The notes beneath the pieces were generated by a model. It was not told the origin of the DNA. It saw only the letters and a list, made by a program, of their open reading frames with translations, and did not search any database. Position numbers and translations under genes: made by a program. From assembly GCA_012837335.1 (NCBI GenBank), contig DURM01000032.1, positions 1 through 64,000 of the forward strand: a stretch of 64,000 nucleotides of DNA. The letters are read 5' to 3'. Origin of the DNA: Bacillota bacterium. Lineage in GTDB: Bacteria > Bacillota > Limnochordia > Darwinibacteriales > DTU012. Shown piece after piece: positions 3,041-17,322 of this stretch (positions are counted from its first letter, which is position 1; every line of letters starts with the position of its first letter).

Positions 3041-4093
3041 CTAATACCCCAGCGACCTTCTCGCTGCGACATGTTCTTGAAATGTTCTGCTGAACTGATG
3101 CGTGCCATCATTCTTGGCAACAAAAAATAAATAATCAACATCAGCCGGACTTAACACCGCAAGGATCGATTTCAAACCCGGGCTGGCAATCGGTCCCGGC
3201 GGCAGGCCATCATAGCGGTAGGTATTATACGGCGAATCAATCTCTAGATCCCGATACAGCACCCGACTGCGGTTCTCAGTCATAACATAGCGCACTGTCG
3301 GATCCGCCTGCAGCCGCATGTCAATATCCAAGCGGTTCAGATATACAGCAGCTACGATCGGCCGCTCAAAGTCATAAATTACTTCTTTTTCCACGATTGA
3401 TGCCAGCGTTACTACTTCATGCAGTGTGTATCTATGATCAAGCAGACTAAGGTCAGTATTTGGAATCACCTGCTCAACAAACCGTGCCACCATCTGCCGG
3501 ATAATCGCCTCTTCGCTCTGCTCTTTAGCAAAGTAGTAGGTATCCGGAAACAAATAGCCCTCTAAGGAAGCGATTGGAAGCTCGATTGGCAGTTCCTCGC
3601 CAAAGACCAGTTCGGCGTTGGATGCTAACAGCAAAAAGCGCTCCCGATCAACCAAACCCTCATCAGCCAGTACATCAGCAATTTGCTTCAAATCATAACC
3701 TTCGGGAATCACAACCCGGTGGATGATAATCTCTCCTGCGTTCAGCTTTTTGATCACTTCCATCGTGCTCATCGTTGGATTTAAAAGATACTCTCCGGCT
3801 TGTAATTGGCTGTCGCTTTTGGTAATGCGCAGCATAAGATTGAATAAATTGGCATTGCGAATTAAGCCCTGCTCAAATAGAAGCTCACCAATACTGCTGG
3901 CAGACAGCCCCGCTGGAATTGTGACGATCGCATCCAAACTGTTTGGGCAGGTGCTTGCCGGTCGATGAGCCATTAGAACTGCTGCTGCAAGACCAATCTG
4001 GGCAATGACTGCAGCGATTACTAGTCCAATTAAAAGAAAACGGACCGCTAACAAACTGGTCCGCTTAGCCTTTGACAGTAAATTGGGTTTCAA
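3041..4093 (-). CDS. mltG: Endolytic murein transglycosylase MltG (YceG family)
   Basis: A membrane-anchored lytic transglycosylase that cuts nascent glycan strands, ending peptidoglycan polymerisation. One transmembrane helix lies near the N terminus. The YceG domain follows, with the catalytic glutamate in LASIVEKE and the downstream AAVYLNRL and LQADPTVRY motifs. I chose the TTG at 4093, giving 350 residues, because a perfect AGGAGG (4106-4101) sits seven bases upstream. An in-frame ATG at 4123 would give 360 residues but has no Shine-Dalgarno site and would place that AGGAGG inside the gene. It lies downstream of the DUF1292 gene and ruvX, as in Bacillus. Confidence 0.92.
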   Translation of the reverse strand: MKPNLLSKAKRTSLLAVRFLLIGLVIAAVIAQIGLAAAVLMAHRPASTCPNSLDAIVTIPAGLSASSIGELLFEQGLIRNANLFNLMLRITKSDSQLQAGEYLLNPTMSTMEVIKKLNAGEIIIHRVVIPEGYDLKQIADVLADEGLVDRERFLLLASNAELVFGEELPIELPIASLEGYLFPDTYYFAKEQSEEAIIRQMVARFVEQVIPNTDLSLLDHRYTLHEVVTLASIVEKEVIYDFERPIVAAVYLNRLDIDMRLQADPTVRYVMTENRSRVLYRDLEIDSPYNTYRYDGLPPGPIASPGLKSILAVLSPADVDYLFFVAKNDGTHQFSRTFQEHVAARRSLGY

Positions 4094-4189
4094 AAACAAC
4101 CCTCCTAATCCGATCAGCATCATTCTGGTCTAAGCTAGTTCATTATAAACCAAGGCAAGAATTAATGCAAATCAGATAATGGAAGAAGC

Positions 4190-4435
4190 CTAATCCATCT
4201 CAGATTCTAAGATCTCCACTACCCGGTCAAATTCATCATCGTCTTCGATCTCAACCAAAATGTCTTCGCCGTCATCGTCCTGTTCAACCCGAAGAATAAT
4301 CGCTCCTTCTTCCGGATCTTCGTCGGGCAGCAGCACAACATACCGGTTATCGTCGATTTCTAAGTAATCCACAACAGTAAACTCAACCTCGTTGTTATTC
4401 TCATCAATCAAAGTAATCTTATCGTTATCGGTCAT
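4190..4435 (-). CDS. DUF1292 family acidic protein (YrzB-like)
   Basis: An 81-residue, strongly acidic protein of the DUF1292 family, with a beta-rich core (residues about 7-50) and an aspartate/glutamate tail. AAAGGAGG lies nine bases before the ATG. In many Bacillota this small gene sits between ruvX and mltG, exactly as here. No biochemical function is established for the family, and the neighbourhood only suggests a housekeeping role. Confidence 0.9.
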   Translation of the reverse strand: MTDNDKITLIDENNNEVEFTVVDYLEIDDNRYVVLLPDEDPEEGAIILRVEQDDDGEDILVEIEDDDEFDRVVEILESEMD

Positions 4436-4450
4436 TGCTGTTATCCTCCT

Positions 4451-4858
4451 TTAATTTCGGTCTAAATAACCCTGTAGAATCACACTCGCTGCTACTTTAT
4501 CCACTACACGGCGTCGTTTTGCCCGACTTACATCCCCTTCAAGCAAAATTCTTTCCGCTGCGGCTGTAGAAAAGCGTTCATCCCAAAACACAATTGGAAC
4601 CGTGACTGCTTCTTTAAGTTTCGCAGCAAATGCCTCCACCTTTTCTGCCTCCGGACCATAGCTGCCGTCAGTGCGGCGCGGCATTCCCACTACGATCCGC
4701 TCAACTTGGTACTGGTCAGCTATTTCCGCCAACCGCTTGAGGTCTTGCTCAATACTAGTTCGCCTAATTACTTCCAATCCCTGCGCCGTAAAACCTAAAG
4801 GATCGCTTACAGCCACACCAACCGTTTTTTCACCTACATCTAATCCCAATACCCGCAT
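4451..4858 (-). CDS. ruvX: Putative pre-16S rRNA nuclease / Holliday junction resolvase-like protein (YqgF)
   Basis: A 135-residue RNase H-fold protein. It opens with the metal-binding motif GLDVGEKTVGVAVSDP, has the VGMPRRTDGS motif, and ends with the FWDERFSTAAAERIL and KVAASVILQGYL motifs, all diagnostic of YqgF. In E. coli the protein matures the 5' end of 16S rRNA; a role in junction resolution was proposed earlier. The GGGAGA Shine-Dalgarno site is seven bases before the ATG. It is co-transcribed with the downstream DUF1292 gene and mltG. Confidence 0.94.
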   Translation of the reverse strand: MRVLGLDVGEKTVGVAVSDPLGFTAQGLEVIRRTSIEQDLKRLAEIADQYQVERIVVGMPRRTDGSYGPEAEKVEAFAAKLKEAVTVPIVFWDERFSTAAAERILLEGDVSRAKRRRVVDKVAASVILQGYLDRN

Positions 4859-4869
4859 TTCGTCTCTCC

Positions 4870-5808
4870 CTAAATCACTTTAATGGCAAACTCCGGACAA
4901 GCAGCGCCGCAGTAGCCGCAGAACACACATTTTTCCCGATCAACTGTGATCACATTATCGACATTGGTTAAGGCTTTTGAAGGGCAAGCCTGCACACACT
5001 TTTCACACAGTACACACCAATCATCGATATGTAATCTGCGCTCAACTTCATCAAGCACCAGTTTCTCCACCGGCTCGCCATTAAAGTAGGCTAAATTGCG
5101 GTGCAGCTCCTGCTCATTCTTCATGCCAACAGCAATCGAATCAATCTCCTGCTGATTCAGCAAAAACTCAAATGCCGCCTGCTGACTGGCAATCAGATGG
5201 CCACCTCCGAGCGGCTTCATGGCAAAGATACCTTTGCCCAGAGCAGCAGCTTGCTTTATCGCATCAAGCATTTGATCACGGCTGCCGCCTTGAATACCAA
5301 TGCCGGAAAGGTTGATGAGAGGCGAAATCACTTCGATTTCGGGGTATTTCAAAGCCCCCAGCACCCCTTGAACATAGTGAGTAGATATTCCTACTGCCTT
5401 TACTTTTCCCTTAACTTTGGCATTTAATAAATACTCCAGCGCTGGCCAATGACCCCGGATCGTGTGCTCCGACTCCTGTTCATGAAGCATAAAGATGGGA
5501 ATTTGGTCCAGATCCAACTCTTTCCGAGCTTCTTCCAGAGCATTCTCCATCATTTCTTCAGTATACGCATAGGACTTGGTAGCAATTACTACTTCATTGG
5601 ACCATCCCTTCAGCGCTTCTCTTATGTAGCCGTAGTTGCGATATAACTGCGCAGTGTCAATAAAATTCACACCTGCTTCTAAAGCTTTCCGAATCAATTT
5701 GCTTCCGTCCGCCAAGGGCAGATTCCGCTGAAGCGGTCCGATGGTCAGCGAACCAAAACACATTCTTGATACTTTAAGTTTAGTCTTACCCAAATTGCGA
5801 TATTCCAC
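4870..5808 (-). CDS. Aldo/keto reductase with C-terminal 2[4Fe-4S] ferredoxin domain
   Basis: An AKR-type (beta/alpha)8 barrel of about 250 residues (RNLGKTKLKVSRMCFGS, then FIDTAQLYRNYG with the catalytic D and Y, a lysine in VIATKSY and a histidine in FMLHE). A ferredoxin-like tail holds two clusters, CVLCEKCVQACP and CVFCGYCGAACP. Such fused proteins probably pass electrons between Fe-S clusters and a nicotinamide-linked site; the substrate is unknown. I chose the GTG at 5808, because AGGAG is eight bases upstream and family members begin M-E-Y-R-x-L-G. A TTG at 5814 is closer to the Shine-Dalgarno site than is usual. It lies between the baseplate-J-like gene and ruvX in the alaS operon and is not part of the usual conserved block. 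Confidence 0.9.
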   Translation of the reverse strand: MEYRNLGKTKLKVSRMCFGSLTIGPLQRNLPLADGSKLIRKALEAGVNFIDTAQLYRNYGYIREALKGWSNEVVIATKSYAYTEEMMENALEEARKELDLDQIPIFMLHEQESEHTIRGHWPALEYLLNAKVKGKVKAVGISTHYVQGVLGALKYPEIEVISPLINLSGIGIQGGSRDQMLDAIKQAAALGKGIFAMKPLGGGHLIASQQAAFEFLLNQQEIDSIAVGMKNEQELHRNLAYFNGEPVEKLVLDEVERRLHIDDWCVLCEKCVQACPSKALTNVDNVITVDREKCVFCGYCGAACPEFAIKVI

Positions 5809-5819
5809 TAGCAAAACTC

Positions 5820-7229
5820 CTAGTACACAGGTTCTTCAACTTTTATCTTTAACCAACGCGGCAGCTGCGGCAGCTTATCTTGAGGTCCACTCTCAACATA
5901 GATCCTGGCTACACCTGGATTAGCTATGAGCACAGTGTCTATCTCCTCGTCTTCTCTTCCGGCAAGCTGCTGTGCAAGCGTTGCTTCGTCAATTACACCT
6001 CTGATGACAGCTTGAGTGCGGAGATTCAACTGATAACCTGCCTCCGTCTCATTGATGCTAACTGAGTCAAAGGATACCGTCTCGGGGACAAGCACAAATC
6101 CATCCGGTACTGCTTCTGCCAACAATGCTGCCGTCGCTCTGCTGAGTTGATCAAGATCGACAAGATACGCTTTTCCAACGCAGATACCGGATGCAAAAAC
6201 TTCGCTGGTTTCTTCATCTACTTGAGACATGTTAGTCCACTCGATATCAATTTTAAAGGTTTCATCAATCATTAATCGTCCACCAAGCTGAACTATTAAA
6301 GCATCGCGCAGCTCCTGCTCTCCATCTCTTCTCACTAGGTTCTGCGCCCGTTCAATATCTTCCCGGACAGCCACCTCTAGAACAACATCTTCGCCACCGC
6401 TGGTAGGATCAGAATTGCGCACTTCTAAATCATAGCCACGAATAGCTACAATCCGCCCGGCGGCAACATTCCCCTGGCTGCCGGCTTCAACAGCCTCGAT
6501 TTCCACTTCAGCCTTGCCAGCGGTCAACCCGGTGGGAATATCCATGAAATACTGAGTAGTAACTGCCGGAACCACAACATCTTTGGTTGTTCTAAATAGG
6601 ATTCCGCTGCCTGTTTCTAAAATGGTCCCTTTAGCAACTGCGGCCTCGCTCTGAGATTGATTGATCAGTGTTACTGCTCCAACTGCCCGTGAAATACCCA
6701 CGATCTTTCTGCCGGTAGCAGGTGTTCTACGCGTCAGCAAAGTCTGCACAGACGCCAACTCGATGCCATCCAATCCATCTAGGGGTACCTGCAGTGTATA
6801 CTTAAAGGTCTCCTGTTTTGGACTGACCACAATCACCGCTTTTGGCAGGTGGTAATAGGCGAGACCGAGCACAGAAGCCGCGATCAGCAGCAGAACAATC
6901 AAACGCTCCACTCTGTCCCGACTTTGGCGGTTCCTATGCTTGACTTCAACTGCTTCTTCATCCCCATCCTCAACTGCTGCCGCGGATTCATCGCGGATAA
7001 CCCGAAGCTCCACCGCTTCTGCGTGCTTAATTATGAGGGGATCTCCGGTTTTGATCACCAGATTTTTTTGAGAATCTTTTGCATATTTTGCTAACAACTT
7101 TATATTTATCCGATCACGCAGCGCCCAATTCTCCGGAGGTACCACCAATACTATCTCTGAATCCTCTTCCAGGCGGATCCTGTGCACGATTGTATTCAGC
7201 TCATCAGCTGGATCAACATAGATGATCAT
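5820..7229 (-). CDS. Bitopic membrane protein with baseplate J-like extracellular domain
   Basis: A 469-residue protein in three parts. First is a cytoplasmic alpha/beta domain (1-80) with the segment EIVLVVPPENWALRDRINIK. A charged linker (80-108) follows, then a single transmembrane helix (about 109-127) just before LPKAVIVVSPKQE. The rest, about 340 residues, should lie outside the cell and resembles the baseplate J/gp47 family (PF04865-type) that is also found in non-phage membrane proteins. No phage genes are nearby. Its ATG overlaps the TGA of the FtsA/PilM-like gene (ATGA), and GGAGGTG lies within that gene's end, so the two are translationally coupled. The arrangement recalls PilM-PilN, a cytosolic actin-like ATPase paired with a single-pass membrane partner. 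The function is unknown. Confidence 0.75.
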   Translation of the reverse strand: MIIYVDPADELNTIVHRIRLEEDSEIVLVVPPENWALRDRINIKLLAKYAKDSQKNLVIKTGDPLIIKHAEAVELRVIRDESAAAVEDGDEEAVEVKHRNRQSRDRVERLIVLLLIAASVLGLAYYHLPKAVIVVSPKQETFKYTLQVPLDGLDGIELASVQTLLTRRTPATGRKIVGISRAVGAVTLINQSQSEAAVAKGTILETGSGILFRTTKDVVVPAVTTQYFMDIPTGLTAGKAEVEIEAVEAGSQGNVAAGRIVAIRGYDLEVRNSDPTSGGEDVVLEVAVREDIERAQNLVRRDGEQELRDALIVQLGGRLMIDETFKIDIEWTNMSQVDEETSEVFASGICVGKAYLVDLDQLSRATAALLAEAVPDGFVLVPETVSFDSVSINETEAGYQLNLRTQAVIRGVIDEATLAQQLAGREDEEIDTVLIANPGVARIYVESGPQDKLPQLPRWLKIKVEEPVY

Positions 7230-8479
7230 CCGTACCGCACACCTCCGAAGATGGTACTGGTTTTAGGTTCTGCTTGACTGGCCTGAAAAGCAATGCTCTT
7301 TGGAGTCACATCCTGCACAGCAGATAAGAAATCTTTAGGATCAGCAACTCCGAATACATCTTCAGGCTGCAGCAGCCGCACTTCGGGTATAACCGCGAAT
7401 AATTCCGATTCGACAAGTTTTGGATGGGCTATCGTTTCGAGAATACCCGGAAGTCCGCTACCTCCCCCGCACAAGACCACACGGGGCGGCAGAGGCTGGC
7501 CCTGATAGAGCTCCTTTAAAGCCAAGATCAGTGCATCCTGCCATATTTTCAAATCAGCCGTGATAATCTCTTTTACCTCGTCACCGACCTCAATCCCGGC
7601 AGCGTAATCCAGCTTAAGCTGCTCTGCTTCCCGCAGCGTTGTGCGGCAGTAGGCAGCAATGCCTTTGGTAAAAGCCCGCCCACCAATACCGAACATTTTT
7701 GTTTTCACAATGCCTCCCCGGTGAATCAGGGCAAGATCGGTGCTGCCTCCACCGATATCAATTACCAATGAACCAAACTCGTAGCTTTCGTCGGTAAATG
7801 TACTGGCTGCCACCGCATAAGGCTCAGCGACTAGACCTACTAAGTCAAGATCAAGACGCTCCACCACGGTTTTTACAGCGCTCACGTGCACTAATGGGGC
7901 AAAAACCATAAACACTGTCATCTCCACATTGCGCCCGCGAAAGTCAATCGGATTGCTCACCTGATAGCCATCGATGCTGATATCTACAACAGCAGAGTTT
8001 ACTAATTCCAAGTCCATCTTTTTAAAGCCCATTTTTTCCGCCATTTCTTCAGTGGCATATTGCTGGGCTTCCAGCTGCACTCCCGCAACCAATCTCGACA
8101 GCTCTCTCCTTGTCAGACCCTTATCTGGCCGCTTCCGCTGCCTGAATACTGTTCGGGTCACACCGGTTACAAACTGGCCAGCAATACCTACAACGACCTC
8201 AGTAGGCTTGACACCGGCAATAACTGACCCTTGCGTCAGCGCCTGGCGGCAGCAGCGAACAACACCAGCTATATTGGCAATAGCCCCGCTGTCCATATCA
8301 GCGTAATCCTGCTGAGATCGGCCAACGCCGATAATAGAGGCTACACCGCCGGCTTGCTCCAAAAACACAGCTTTAACATATTCGGTTCCAATATCTAAAG
8401 CTATCCGGTATGTCGGCTCTGAATCCTGGGCCTGCCGAGGATTGATCCGCGATAATAGGTCCTTTAGCATTACTACCAT
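7226..8479 (-). CDS. FtsA/PilM-like actin-fold ATPase
   Basis: About 417 residues of the ASKHA/FtsA superfamily. The phosphate-1 loop LDIGTEYVK is near residue 30, phosphate-2 VIDIGGGSTDLAL near 242, and the adenosine motif VVLCGGGSGLPG near 338. An FtsA-type insert domain (SHS2-like) lies between about 90 and 200. The last 20 residues (TSTIFGGVRYG end) lack the amphipathic membrane helix of true FtsA, so membrane contact probably comes through the coupled baseplate-J-like partner. The start is uncertain: AAAGGA is followed closely by TTG (8482), ATG (8479) and ATG (8470). It could equally be called PilM-like, but no pilus genes are present in the window. Confidence 0.8.
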   Translation of the reverse strand: MVVMLKDLLSRINPRQAQDSEPTYRIALDIGTEYVKAVFLEQAGGVASIIGVGRSQQDYADMDSGAIANIAGVVRCCRQALTQGSVIAGVKPTEVVVGIAGQFVTGVTRTVFRQRKRPDKGLTRRELSRLVAGVQLEAQQYATEEMAEKMGFKKMDLELVNSAVVDISIDGYQVSNPIDFRGRNVEMTVFMVFAPLVHVSAVKTVVERLDLDLVGLVAEPYAVAASTFTDESYEFGSLVIDIGGGSTDLALIHRGGIVKTKMFGIGGRAFTKGIAAYCRTTLREAEQLKLDYAAGIEVGDEVKEIITADLKIWQDALILALKELYQGQPLPPRVVLCGGGSGLPGILETIAHPKLVESELFAVIPEVRLLQPEDVFGVADPKDFLSAVQDVTPKSIAFQASQAEPKTSTIFGGVRYG

Positions 8480-8526: not shown

Positions 8527-8796
8527 CTAGCTGCTGCCAGTCCCTTGCGATTTCTGTAAGTAACTTGCGACCAGTTCTTCAAGAATTTTATCTCTTTCTA
8601 ACTGCCGAATCAGGTTGCGCGCGTTCCCGTGACTTGTGATATACGTCGGGTCGCCTGACATCAAGTAACCAACTATTTGTCCAACGGGGTTGTAACCTTT
8701 AGCTTGCAGCGCCTGGTACACTTCCTGCAGTACCTGGGCGATCAAGCCATTCTCTGAATGCGGAAACCTACGGAAGATAGTAGTTTTATCATCCAT
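8527..8796 (-). CDS. ireB: IreB family regulatory phosphoprotein (UPF0297/YrzL)
   Basis: A small protein of 89 residues. The family hallmarks [34 protein letters not shown] and the threonine-rich start MDDKTTIF are intact. In Enterococcus, IreB is phosphorylated on N-terminal threonines by the PASTA kinase IreK and controls cephalosporin resistance. The ATG at 8796 was preferred over 8829 because homologues begin at this point; AAGGGGG is ten bases upstream. Adjacency to alaS is conserved across Bacillota. Confidence 0.93.
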
Positions 8797-8850
8797 GACC
8801 ACCAAGCCCCCTTTTGGTGCAATCCTCATTACCTAATTCGGCACTGCAAA

Positions 8851-11496
8851 TTACTTCTCCTTTAACTGTTCAACTAACAATTCCCGGACAGTCTTGAGAG
8901 CTTCCGGAAGTTTCTCCGGGAGCCGCCCACCTGCTTGAGCCATATCAGGTCTGCCGCCGCCTCCGCCGCCGCAGATTTGAGCTGCAGTTTTGATCAGATT
9001 GCCAGCGTGAACCACCTTACCAGCGATATCTTTAGTCGCCATGGCTACCAGCAGTACTTTTTCACCGGCACGAGCTCCTAAAAAGATCACCGATGGCTTA
9101 AGCTGATCCCGCAGCTTGTCACCTAAGGTGCGGAGCTGCTCTGTTTCTGCCAGCTCTACTTCAGCAATAACTAATTTAACTCCATTGATTTCCTCAGCTT
9201 GGCTGATTAGATCACCGGTTACATCGGACACTGCCTTGCGCTTAAATTTATTCAGTTCTGCCTGCAGCTCTTTCTGCTGCTCTAACAGCCGTTCCAACTG
9301 TTGAACCGCCTGTTCTACCGGCGCATCAAGAAGTTGGCTGAGTTCTTTAAGCATGGTCTCCCGCTGGTCGGTGTACTCGAGTGCTCGCTTGCCTGCCACT
9401 GCCTCAATTCTGCGGACACCTGCGGCAATACTGCTCTCAGATACAATCCTGAACAAACCAATGTCTCCTGTAGCGCTTACATGGGTGCCTCCGCACAGCT
9501 CCATCGATTCACCCATGGACACTACCCGCACAGAACTGCCATACTTCTCGCCGAAGAGAGCTATCGCGCCTTTGGATTTTGCTTCTTCAAGCGAAAGATT
9601 TTCAGTCTGAACAGGATAGTTGGCCATTACTGCTTCATTAACAAGCTGTTCAATTAACAGGAGCTGCTCAGGTGTAACCGCTTCAAAATGGGTAAAGTCG
9701 AAGCGGAGCCTTTCGGCATCAACATATGAACCGGATTGGTGCACATGCTCGCCTAATACTTCCCGCAGCGCTTTATGAAGCAGATGGGTAGCACTGTGGT
9801 GTCTCATCGTATCCCAGCGCTCTTTGTTGTAAACCGAGGCTAACACTGGATCTCCAACCCGCAATTCTCCTGAAACCAGCACACCTTCGTGAGCAATAAT
9901 GCCTTCAACCGGGTGGCTGACATCTTTGACGCTGAACTGTCCAGTTTTGGCAGTAATTGTTCCTGTATCGGATACCTGACCTCCGCTTTCGGCGTAGAAA
10001 GGAGTCTTATTTAAAACTACAACTCCCGCTTCACCGGCGCCGAGTCGATCAACGATCTGATTATCTTTAATGATGGCAGCAACTTCTGCTGAGCATTCGG
10101 TTGTTTCATAGCCAACAAAGAGCGACTCCAGCTCTTCGTGGAGTTTCTGATAAAGCTCAAGATGGTCACCTAGATAATTCGTCTGTGCCCGAGCTTTTCT
10201 GGCCCTTTCCCGCTGCTGTTCCATCGCTGCTTGGAATCCTTCTTCATCAGTAGCAAACCCCTGTTCAGCAGCAATTTCCTTAGTAAGCTCAGCGGGGAAG
10301 CCATAAGTGTCATAGAGTCTGAAAACATCTTCTCCGGAAATAATCTTTTCTGCACCTGCCTGATGCTTGCTGATGATATCCTGCAGAATGTTCAGACCTT
10401 GATCAAGTGTTTCATAGAAGCGCTGTTCTTCTAGATTAACGACTTTGTGGATATACTCTTTATTGTCCACAAGCTCCGGATAACCGGTCTGCATCTGCTG
10501 AATCACGATATCGACCATTTCATTTAAGAACTGACCCTTAATGCCTAAAAGGCGGCCGTGGCGTGCAGCTCTTCTGATCAGACGCCTTAACACATAACCC
10601 CGCCCCTCATTGCTGGGCAGAACTCCATCACTTACTAAGAAAGTCAGCGCCCGCGCGTGATCCGTGATCACTCTCAGTGACACATCAGCTTTTTCATCTT
10701 TACCGTAGCTGGTTTTGGCGAGACTGGCAGCTTTGTCGATAATCGGCTTGATCAGGTCGATTTCAAAAATGCTTTTTACACCCTGCATCAGAGCTACAAT
10801 CCGCTCCATGCCCATACCCGTGTCAATACTCCTAGATTCCAAAGGCTCGTATCTACCTGCTTCCCGCTGGATATACTGAACAAATACCAAATTCCAGAAC
10901 TCCATAAAGCGCTCGCATTCGCAGCCGGGCTTACAGTCGGGATTATCGCAGCCGAATTCCGGACCGCGGTCATAGTGAATCTCGGAGCAGGGTCCACAGG
11001 GATAGCCTACACCGATTTCCCAGAAGTTGTCTTCTTTACCGAGGCGAACAATCCGTTCCTGAGGAACACCGATCTTTTCATGCCAGATCTGAAAAGCCTC
11101 ATCATCATCCAGATAGATTGTTACCCAGAGCTTGTCTTTGGGAATTCCCATATGTTCGATAATAAACTCCCACGCCCAGGTAATAGCTTCTGCTTTAAAA
11201 TAATCACCAAATGAAAAATTGCCTAACATCTCAAAAAATGTACCATGACGATCGGTTTTTCCCACGTTTTCCAAATCCGGAGTGCGCAGACAGCGCTGGC
11301 AGGTAGTTACCCGCCGGAACTCCGGTTCTTCTTGACCCAGAAAATATGGTTTAAACGGAACCATGCCCGCACCGGTCAGCAGTAAGCTGGCATCACCATG
11401 CGGGACAAGGGAGGCACTAGGCAGAACCTGATGACCTTTTGATTTAAAAAACTCTAAAAACATAGATCGCATTTGATCAGCTGTAATGTACTTCAT
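8851..11496 (-). CDS. alaS: Alanyl-tRNA synthetase
   Basis: The full 881-residue class II enzyme that charges tRNA-Ala. The catalytic domain begins ITADQMRSMFLEFFKSKGH. The editing site has zinc ligands in HSATHLLH and in ELCGGTHV, and the C-terminal C-Ala domain ends with a glycine-rich CGGGGGGRPDMAQAGG. It is the first gene of a long minus-strand operon and has its own promoter 50 bases upstream. The Shine-Dalgarno site is weak: GGAAGAG lies directly before the ATG, next to a five-base-pair CCGCA/TGCGG hairpin that may limit translation. There is no room for a T-box leader. Confidence 0.97.
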   Translation of the reverse strand: MKYITADQMRSMFLEFFKSKGHQVLPSASLVPHGDASLLLTGAGMVPFKPYFLGQEEPEFRRVTTCQRCLRTPDLENVGKTDRHGTFFEMLGNFSFGDYFKAEAITWAWEFIIEHMGIPKDKLWVTIYLDDDEAFQIWHEKIGVPQERIVRLGKEDNFWEIGVGYPCGPCSEIHYDRGPEFGCDNPDCKPGCECERFMEFWNLVFVQYIQREAGRYEPLESRSIDTGMGMERIVALMQGVKSIFEIDLIKPIIDKAASLAKTSYGKDEKADVSLRVITDHARALTFLVSDGVLPSNEGRGYVLRRLIRRAARHGRLLGIKGQFLNEMVDIVIQQMQTGYPELVDNKEYIHKVVNLEEQRFYETLDQGLNILQDIISKHQAGAEKIISGEDVFRLYDTYGFPAELTKEIAAEQGFATDEEGFQAAMEQQRERARKARAQTNYLGDHLELYQKLHEELESLFVGYETTECSAEVAAIIKDNQIVDRLGAGEAGVVVLNKTPFYAESGGQVSDTGTITAKTGQFSVKDVSHPVEGIIAHEGVLVSGELRVGDPVLASVYNKERWDTMRHHSATHLLHKALREVLGEHVHQSGSYVDAERLRFDFTHFEAVTPEQLLLIEQLVNEAVMANYPVQTENLSLEEAKSKGAIALFGEKYGSSVRVVSMGESMELCGGTHVSATGDIGLFRIVSESSIAAGVRRIEAVAGKRALEYTDQRETMLKELSQLLDAPVEQAVQQLERLLEQQKELQAELNKFKRKAVSDVTGDLISQAEEINGVKLVIAEVELAETEQLRTLGDKLRDQLKPSVIFLGARAGEKVLLVAMATKDIAGKVVHAGNLIKTAAQICGGGGGGRPDMAQAGGRLPEKLPEALKTVRELLVEQLKEK

Positions 11497-17128: not shown

Positions 17129-17322
17129 ACTGCGATTTTCTCCCCACTATGCCGTTGAACTGACTAGAATGAACCTGCTCTCGGCAGGTGGGTATCCTCC
17201 CAACAGCTTCAAGTGTCCTTCTTGCAAGGCGTACTATCCACTCTTGGAGTTGAATTCCCTTTGTAATGGTGTTGGCTCATTACAAAGCCAGTTTCATCCC
17301 GAGCACAGCAGGGCTTTGGTTC
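17103..17322 (-). ncRNA. ssrS: 6S RNA (ssrS), including its terminator hairpin
   Basis: A stable RNA that binds sigma-A RNA polymerase and mimics an open promoter. The predicted transcript starts at about 17322. An 11-base-pair closing stem with wobbles pairs CCCTGCTGTGC near the 5' end with GCATAGTGGGG near the 3' end. Inside are a perfect ten-base-pair hairpin (CTTTGTAATG with CATTACAAAG), a CCTT/AAGG apical hairpin and an ACCTGC/GCAGGT hairpin. The main body is about 190 bases, the usual size. The position between aspS and tcdA is the place of the 6S-1 gene in Bacillus. Identity rests on synteny and fold, not on a covariance search. Confidence 0.8.

Follow-up and report, generated by a model that had tools for sequence, protein, structure and literature searches.

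What do an actin-like ATPase and a membrane protein with a phage-baseplate-like outer region, encoded by two overlapping genes, do in a housekeeping operon of Limnochordia? In the window (the whole 64,000-nucleotide stretch analyzed), a preliminary description had read them as a two-gene envelope system, with a suggested link to the cell wall through IreB and MltG. No account of such a pair was found in our literature searches, whose coverage took in few subscription journals. We refer to the membrane protein as BPJ.

The genes on the minus strand are ordered rlmD (assigned by reading the sequence), U32 peptidase, mltG, DUF1292, ruvX, AKR-ferredoxin, BPJ, ATPase, ireB and alaS, and transcription runs from alaS downwards (Table 1). 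All members of the alaS-ireB-ruvX-mltG operon named earlier are present, with the AKR-ferredoxin gene as a further member between BPJ and ruvX. The ATGA overlap of the ATPase and BPJ reading frames was confirmed, and the same 4-nt overlap recurs in all 11 further genomes of this order that have both genes. Housekeeping genes occupy the scanned part of the window between 16 and 64 kb (aspartyl- and histidyl-tRNA synthetases, RelA/SpoT, RecJ, TGT, an Era-like GTPase, PhoH, DnaK, DnaJ, LepA, MurJ and Gpr). As described before, no phage or pilus genes were found in this part or in the nearby operon, and neither protein of the pair belongs to such a module; tail genes were likewise absent among 20 scanned window proteins and near the operon. 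A 6S RNA lies at window positions 17137-17317 on the minus strand (RF00013, 83.3 bits).

Table 1 Coordinates of the ATPase and BPJ genes, their domains and motifs, and neighboring genes. Positions are those of the window unless a locus is named.
Feature	Position	Strand	Remarks
alaS	8851..11496	-	assigned by reading the sequence
ireB	8527..8829	-	
FtsA-family actin-like ATPase	7226..8470	-	414 aa from ATG 8470
ATPase N-terminal segment MLKDLLSRINP	8438..8470	-	possible amphipathic membrane-targeting helix (MreB-like)
ATPase phosphate-1 motif ALDIGTEYVKA	8369..8401	-	D30, G32, T33 and K37 invariant in 15 homologues
ATPase phosphate-2 motif VIDIGGGSTD	7736..7765	-	D242, G244-G246 and D249 invariant
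ATPase adenosine motif LCGGGSGLPG	7445..7474	-	kept in every intact homologue
ATGA stop/start overlap, ATPase/BPJ	7226..7229	-	plus strand reads tcat
BPJ	5820..7229	-	bitopic, 469 aa; outer region J-like
BPJ inner (cytosolic) domain	6984..7229	-	aa 1-82; beta-alpha-beta-alpha-beta-alpha-beta, Rossmann-like; AlphaFold
BPJ transmembrane (TM) helix	6849..6923	-	aa 103-127; basic linker before; AlphaFold
BPJ J-like beta-barrel region	6366..6737	-	aa 165-288; conserved GG-D motif at end
BPJ C-terminal alpha/beta part	5823..6365	-	aa 289-469; alpha-beta-beta-alpha-beta-beta-alpha-beta; AlphaFold
Aldo/keto reductase (AKR) with C-terminal [4Fe-4S] ferredoxin domain	4870..5814	-	between BPJ and ruvX
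ruvX	4451..4858	-	
DUF1292	4190..4435	-	
mltG	3041..4123	-	
~680-750-aa upstream protein	L081:11189-13222, L084:7298-9394, L086:1689-3839, L089:10974-13118, L090:4334-6511, L093:6018-8189, L099:9017-11272, L102:9909-11993		

The mechanical open reading frame of the ATPase starts at TTG 8482 (418 aa), and ATG 8470 (MLKDLL...) is preferred because the alignment of every homologue in the order begins at MLKD or MIRD. Its three nucleotide motifs are intact and conserved, and an AlphaFold model (pLDDT 84.5, 15-sequence alignment) searched with Foldseek has an FtsA/PilM-type fold, in line with the actin-fold protein first proposed. FtsA was the best match in the PDB (TM 0.71/0.77 over 411 columns, with the IC subdomain present; TM 0.71 for the FtsA-FtsN complex 7q6i), PilM came second (TM 0.51-0.63) and MreB was lower still. 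The ATPase passes Pfam FtsA and MreB_Mbl. Its best NCBIfam family is ftsA TIGR01174 (E 4e-39), where it scores 134.7 bits and the cut-off is 175.85, followed by EutJ, MreB and PilM, all under their cut-offs (for PilM, 32.2 of 133 bits with TIGR01175 and 21.2 of 27 bits with PF11104). The dN/dS of the ATPase is 0.03-0.08, similar to that of alaS, with dS partly saturated. Both ATPase and BPJ are under strong purifying selection, which speaks against chance ORFs.

The ATPase ends 17 residues past its terminal QDVTPKSIAFQA helix, and this tail (maximal hydrophobic moment 0.27) contains no FtsA-type C-terminal amphipathic helix, as the preliminary description had it. At the other end, the N-terminal segment has a hydrophobic moment of 0.59 (shuffle p 0.066; single-sequence shuffle p 0.03-0.44). 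Helix 2-13 is of low confidence in the model and the segment is missing from one homologue (L043); the N-terminus could, as a weak and purely suggestive reading, be a MreB-like membrane-targeting helix.

These properties bear on whether the ATPase is the cell-division FtsA and BPJ its ZipA- or FtsN-like partner, which we consider very unlikely. The ATPase has the FtsA fold and is the best match of the ftsA model in a genome-wide search (128.1 bits; next protein, 96.5 bits), but the score is under the cut-off, the C-terminal membrane helix is missing, the gene does not lie beside ftsZ, and it has been lost outright or has decayed in close relatives. Moreover, a separate FtsA-like protein, mostly of 650-990 aa, occurs in at least 32 of 41 relatives. 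Its counterpart in the window genome, on contig C8 of G000 (L111:6818-8761), is a second FtsA-like protein of 647 aa with a long C-terminal extension, encoded beside a 5'-3' exonuclease-like gene, and is a candidate that may hold the divisome role. The window genome carries two other MreB-like proteins.

The AlphaFold model of BPJ (pLDDT 92, 54 sequences) consists, in order, of the inner domain (~1-80), a disordered linker, the TM helix, a beta-rich region and the alpha/beta C-terminal part. Because a basic stretch precedes its one TM, BPJ is assigned an N-in/C-out topology. It scores 28.2 bits with Pfam PF04865 (Baseplate J-like; gathering score 21.1), a family matched at E ≤ 0.1 by 54/54 BPJ family members, and Foldseek retrieved baseplate J proteins of phages, with E values as low as 2.4e-7, the GlxA barrel in the PDB and, from a viral structure library, phage J proteins. 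AlphaFold, Pfam and Foldseek thus agree on the single-pass protein with a small inner and a baseplate-J-like outer part that had been predicted. Sequence comparison with the PDB gave no match by phmmer and weak J matches only with the BPJ profile.

Among the Bacillota, a diderm envelope is reported for Limnochordia, Halanaerobiia and Negativicutes (PMC11448272). Of 73 class genomes, 71 carry Omp85 and 68 the spore protease Gpr, the window genome having both, and the class apparently consists of diderm spore formers. Given the prevalence of Omp85, the outer part of BPJ is probably periplasmic. Both markers are nearly universal and hence, within the class, uninformative on any relation of the pair to sporulation or the outer membrane.

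The likeness of the barrel to phage baseplate proteins might indicate that BPJ is a domesticated or decaying baseplate protein, the remnant of a prophage or contractile-injection system. This is extremely unlikely, as the TM and inner domain are fused in front of the barrel, the gene lies, in many families, at one and the same housekeeping site of the chromosome and is under strong purifying selection, and the window has no other tail genes; an ancient shared barrel suffices. BPJ had no tblastn match in a phage collection of 50,697 records, and none in a plasmid collection.

It is also hardly probable that the pair is of the PilM-PilN type and all that is left of a stripped type IV pilus or type II secretion platform. 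The PilM-like second-best fold, the bitopic partner and its alpha/beta C-terminal part would fit such an origin; an alpha-beta-beta-alpha-beta-beta topology of that part is seen by eye only. On the other hand, pilus genes are present at none of the examined loci, the ATPase falls under the PilM cut-offs and a J-like barrel is foreign to PilN. BPJ has no Pfam match to PilN and an hhalign probability of 0.2% with E. coli HofN, a weak test with HofN as a single sequence; the HofM comparison, equally weak for the same reason, gave no match. The only T2SSF genes of the genome are those of a Tad system encoded on a different contig, and PilM is absent from the stretch read. This Tad locus (L110, G000 contig C19:62000-78000) was read from the sequence as TadZ, TadA, TadB/C, CpaB and a secretin-like protein, and flagellar FlgK/FlgL genes were assigned in the same way on that stretch.

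To profile the distribution of the pair we searched samples of 73 genomes of the class and 398 from the phylum (thresholds: BPJ, E<1e-20; ATPase subfamily, E<=1e-40); a single-protein search of genome contigs had found one near relative only. BPJ had strong matches in 27/73 class and 46/398 phylum genomes, and the ATPase subfamily in 13 and 7, respectively, a total of 16 distinct genomes. In 16/16 of these BPJ is immediately downstream of the ATPase, although the G218 ATPase copy is frameshifted and the G011 copy is cut by the contig end. The adjacency holds across several families with different upstream genes. Among the 37 genomes of the window's order, 12 have both genes, 2 BPJ only, none the ATPase only and 23 neither (Fisher p 5e-8, phylogeny not corrected for). 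The proposal that ATPase and BPJ form a unit is therefore borne out from the side of the ATPase, which always occurs with BPJ. The reverse does not hold, and a strictly two-gene system is not supported: BPJ occurs without the ATPase in 39/46 BPJ-bearing phylum-sample genomes. As a lone gene it lies at the same alaS-ruvX-DUF1292-mltG site.

The two genes might then be merely co-transcribed, with BPJ a stand-alone envelope protein and the ATPase acting elsewhere, in the elongation or division machinery. That BPJ is alone in most BPJ genomes speaks for this, as does a constraint on its inner domain that is independent of the ATPase (see below). Yet the ATPase adjoins BPJ in every case, whichever family and upstream genes are considered, and the 4-nt overlap is kept wherever the pair occurs in the window's order, and we regard co-transcription alone as unlikely.

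A ~680-750-aa protein is encoded directly upstream of the ATPase or BPJ in several families (Table 1). In one member the N-terminal part has weak similarity (E 0.015) to the alkaline phosphatase/sulfatase superfamily of metalloenzymes. A multi-helix membrane part follows, with R-YG-GNE and NDSG motifs invariant in the alignment; no Pfam family was matched. The protein is possibly another part of the ATPase-BPJ system.

Of 28 distant BPJ loci, 27 have ruvX and 24 mltG in the cluster, and in 18 ireB is adjacent, so BPJ is an old member of this housekeeping cluster. We inspected 11 operons without the pair, 7 from the order and 4 from the class; in these the site is closed up and ireB and ruvX are still together. 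The operon position had suggested a cell-wall regulator tied to IreB/PASTA-kinase signaling and MltG, and the frequent proximity of mltG would fit it. We now find this very improbable: ireB, ruvX and mltG stay together in pair-less operons, which means that the link is not pair-specific, ireB is not adjacent in 10 of the 28 loci, and the cluster, with alaS and rlmD also in it, is a general housekeeping one. Nothing replaces the pair at the pair-less sites except, in several, a DegV-like gene, which is also present in some pair-bearing relatives. This gene (assigned by sequence reading; L026:5788-6669, L027:10696-11601, L028:6264-7100, L029:6231-7088) is a feature of a single family in the order, where it directly precedes the ATPase or, in genomes without the pair, adjoins the AKR gene.

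Natural losses, read from assemblies, bear on the parts of the system. Four loci (L024, L078, L079 and L098) have neither the ATPase nor the BPJ inner domain and keep the TM and outer part, and their genomes fall at three separate places of the tree, inside ATPase-bearing clades. In G008 (L024) the ATPase and BPJ residues 1-96 are gone while the closest relatives have the full pair; G338 (L098), with the same loss, is nested among ATPase-bearing genomes on an alaS-ruvX-mltG tree, and G041 and G042, again with this loss, lie beside the ATPase-bearing G043. Elsewhere the ATPase has decayed next to BPJ. An in-frame deletion in G007 leaves a 133-aa ATPase remnant (L023:2150-2551) and an intact BPJ with its inner domain, G268 has a 52-aa remnant (L084:6953-7111) next to an intact BPJ with the inner domain, and the frameshifted ATPase of G218 (L081:9846-11083) stands beside an intact BPJ. 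On the simplest reading, the ATPase and inner domain may be one cytosolic module, and the TM and outer part another that is able to work alone. As the ATPase gene runs straight into the inner-domain codons, however, one deletion could explain each co-loss without any functional signal. Since BPJ is mostly found alone and its outer part is kept after the losses, BPJ appears to form the core, with the ATPase as an accessory.

Most lineages without the ATPase have kept the inner domain, whose identity at equal barrel divergence hardly differs between lineages with and without the ATPase. The ATPase was accordingly rejected as the cause of inner-domain conservation, and over all fetched loci the two were not significantly associated (p 0.14). 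An inner domain equally constrained without the ATPase has a role or partner beyond it, and does not serve only as an ATPase adaptor.

We give a probability of roughly 55% to the reading that BPJ is a periplasmic J-like scaffold core, to which some lineages add a coupled FtsA-family ATPase that binds or switches it in the manner of FtsA-FtsN or PilM-PilN. BPJ would be anchored in the inner membrane as the selected core, with the J-like barrel and the alpha/beta C-terminal part outside, in the periplasm. In some lineages the actin-like ATPase, presumably translationally coupled to BPJ, would bind the Rossmann-like inner domain, organize or switch the outer part by its nucleotide state, and form filaments or oligomers under the membrane, as FtsA does on FtsN or PilM on PilN. 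In FtsA-FtsN as in PilM-PilN, the cytosolic tail of the bitopic protein docks in the IA-IC cleft of the actin-like one, and the formation of double filaments by FtsA is promoted when FtsN binds (PMC7613929). As FtsA and PilM hold the partner tail in this cleft and the same parts are present here, we infer a nucleotide-dependent oligomerization of the ATPase on BPJ. Physical binding, ATP-dependent control, oligomerization and the process served are all proposed by analogy; for the last, envelope organization or trans-envelope assembly would be a guess, and no evidence ties it to IreB or MltG. More tentatively, the pair may be a trans-envelope device of diderm Bacillota that has neither pilus nor divisome parts: polymerized under the inner membrane on the folded cytosolic domain of BPJ, the ATPase would drive or pattern a J-like ring or scaffold in the periplasm.

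If true, BPJ would be a third kind of partner, besides those of FtsA-FtsN and PilM-PilN, for actin-like ATPases acting through the membrane on a bitopic protein, and would place a phage-baseplate-type barrel in a bacterial envelope protein. It would also provide a testable candidate system for diderm Bacillota, about whose envelope machinery little is known. The two variants found in nature, one with only the outer part and one with the inner domain but no ATPase, are ready separation-of-function cases. In these deep-branching, probably double-membraned Bacillota, the pair looks like an undescribed inside-to-outside envelope device.

Compared with known systems, the pair shares with FtsA-FtsN an actin-like ATPase with an IC subdomain (best fold 7q6i) and a bitopic partner whose N-terminal part is cytosolic. 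Unlike FtsA, however, the ATPase is under the equivalog cut-off, has no C-terminal amphipathic helix, is dispensable and is encoded outside dcw, and in BPJ a folded inner domain of ~80 aa and a J-like barrel stand in place of the short tail and SPOR domain of FtsN. In PilM-PilN and GspL-type platforms the ATPase fold is the same and the gene of a bitopic partner likewise follows directly, whereas here there are no pilus genes, the ATPase is under the PilM cut-offs, and a folded domain and J-like barrel stand against the short tail of PilN (INFLPWR in E. coli HofN). With phage baseplate J, gp47 and T4 gp6 (PF04865), BPJ shares the barrel with the GG-D motif, and the Foldseek alignment spans most of the phage J protein, yet only the barrel superposes (TM about 0.2); unlike them, BPJ is membrane-anchored and encoded in a chromosomal operon with no tail genes. 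MreB, whose N-terminus begins MLKK..., resembles the ATPase in its actin fold and possibly in an N-terminal amphipathic helix (MLKD...), but the ATPase has an FtsA-type IC subdomain and is paired with BPJ. By the tests run, the pair is thus distinct from canonical FtsA, from PilM-PilN and from a phage module.
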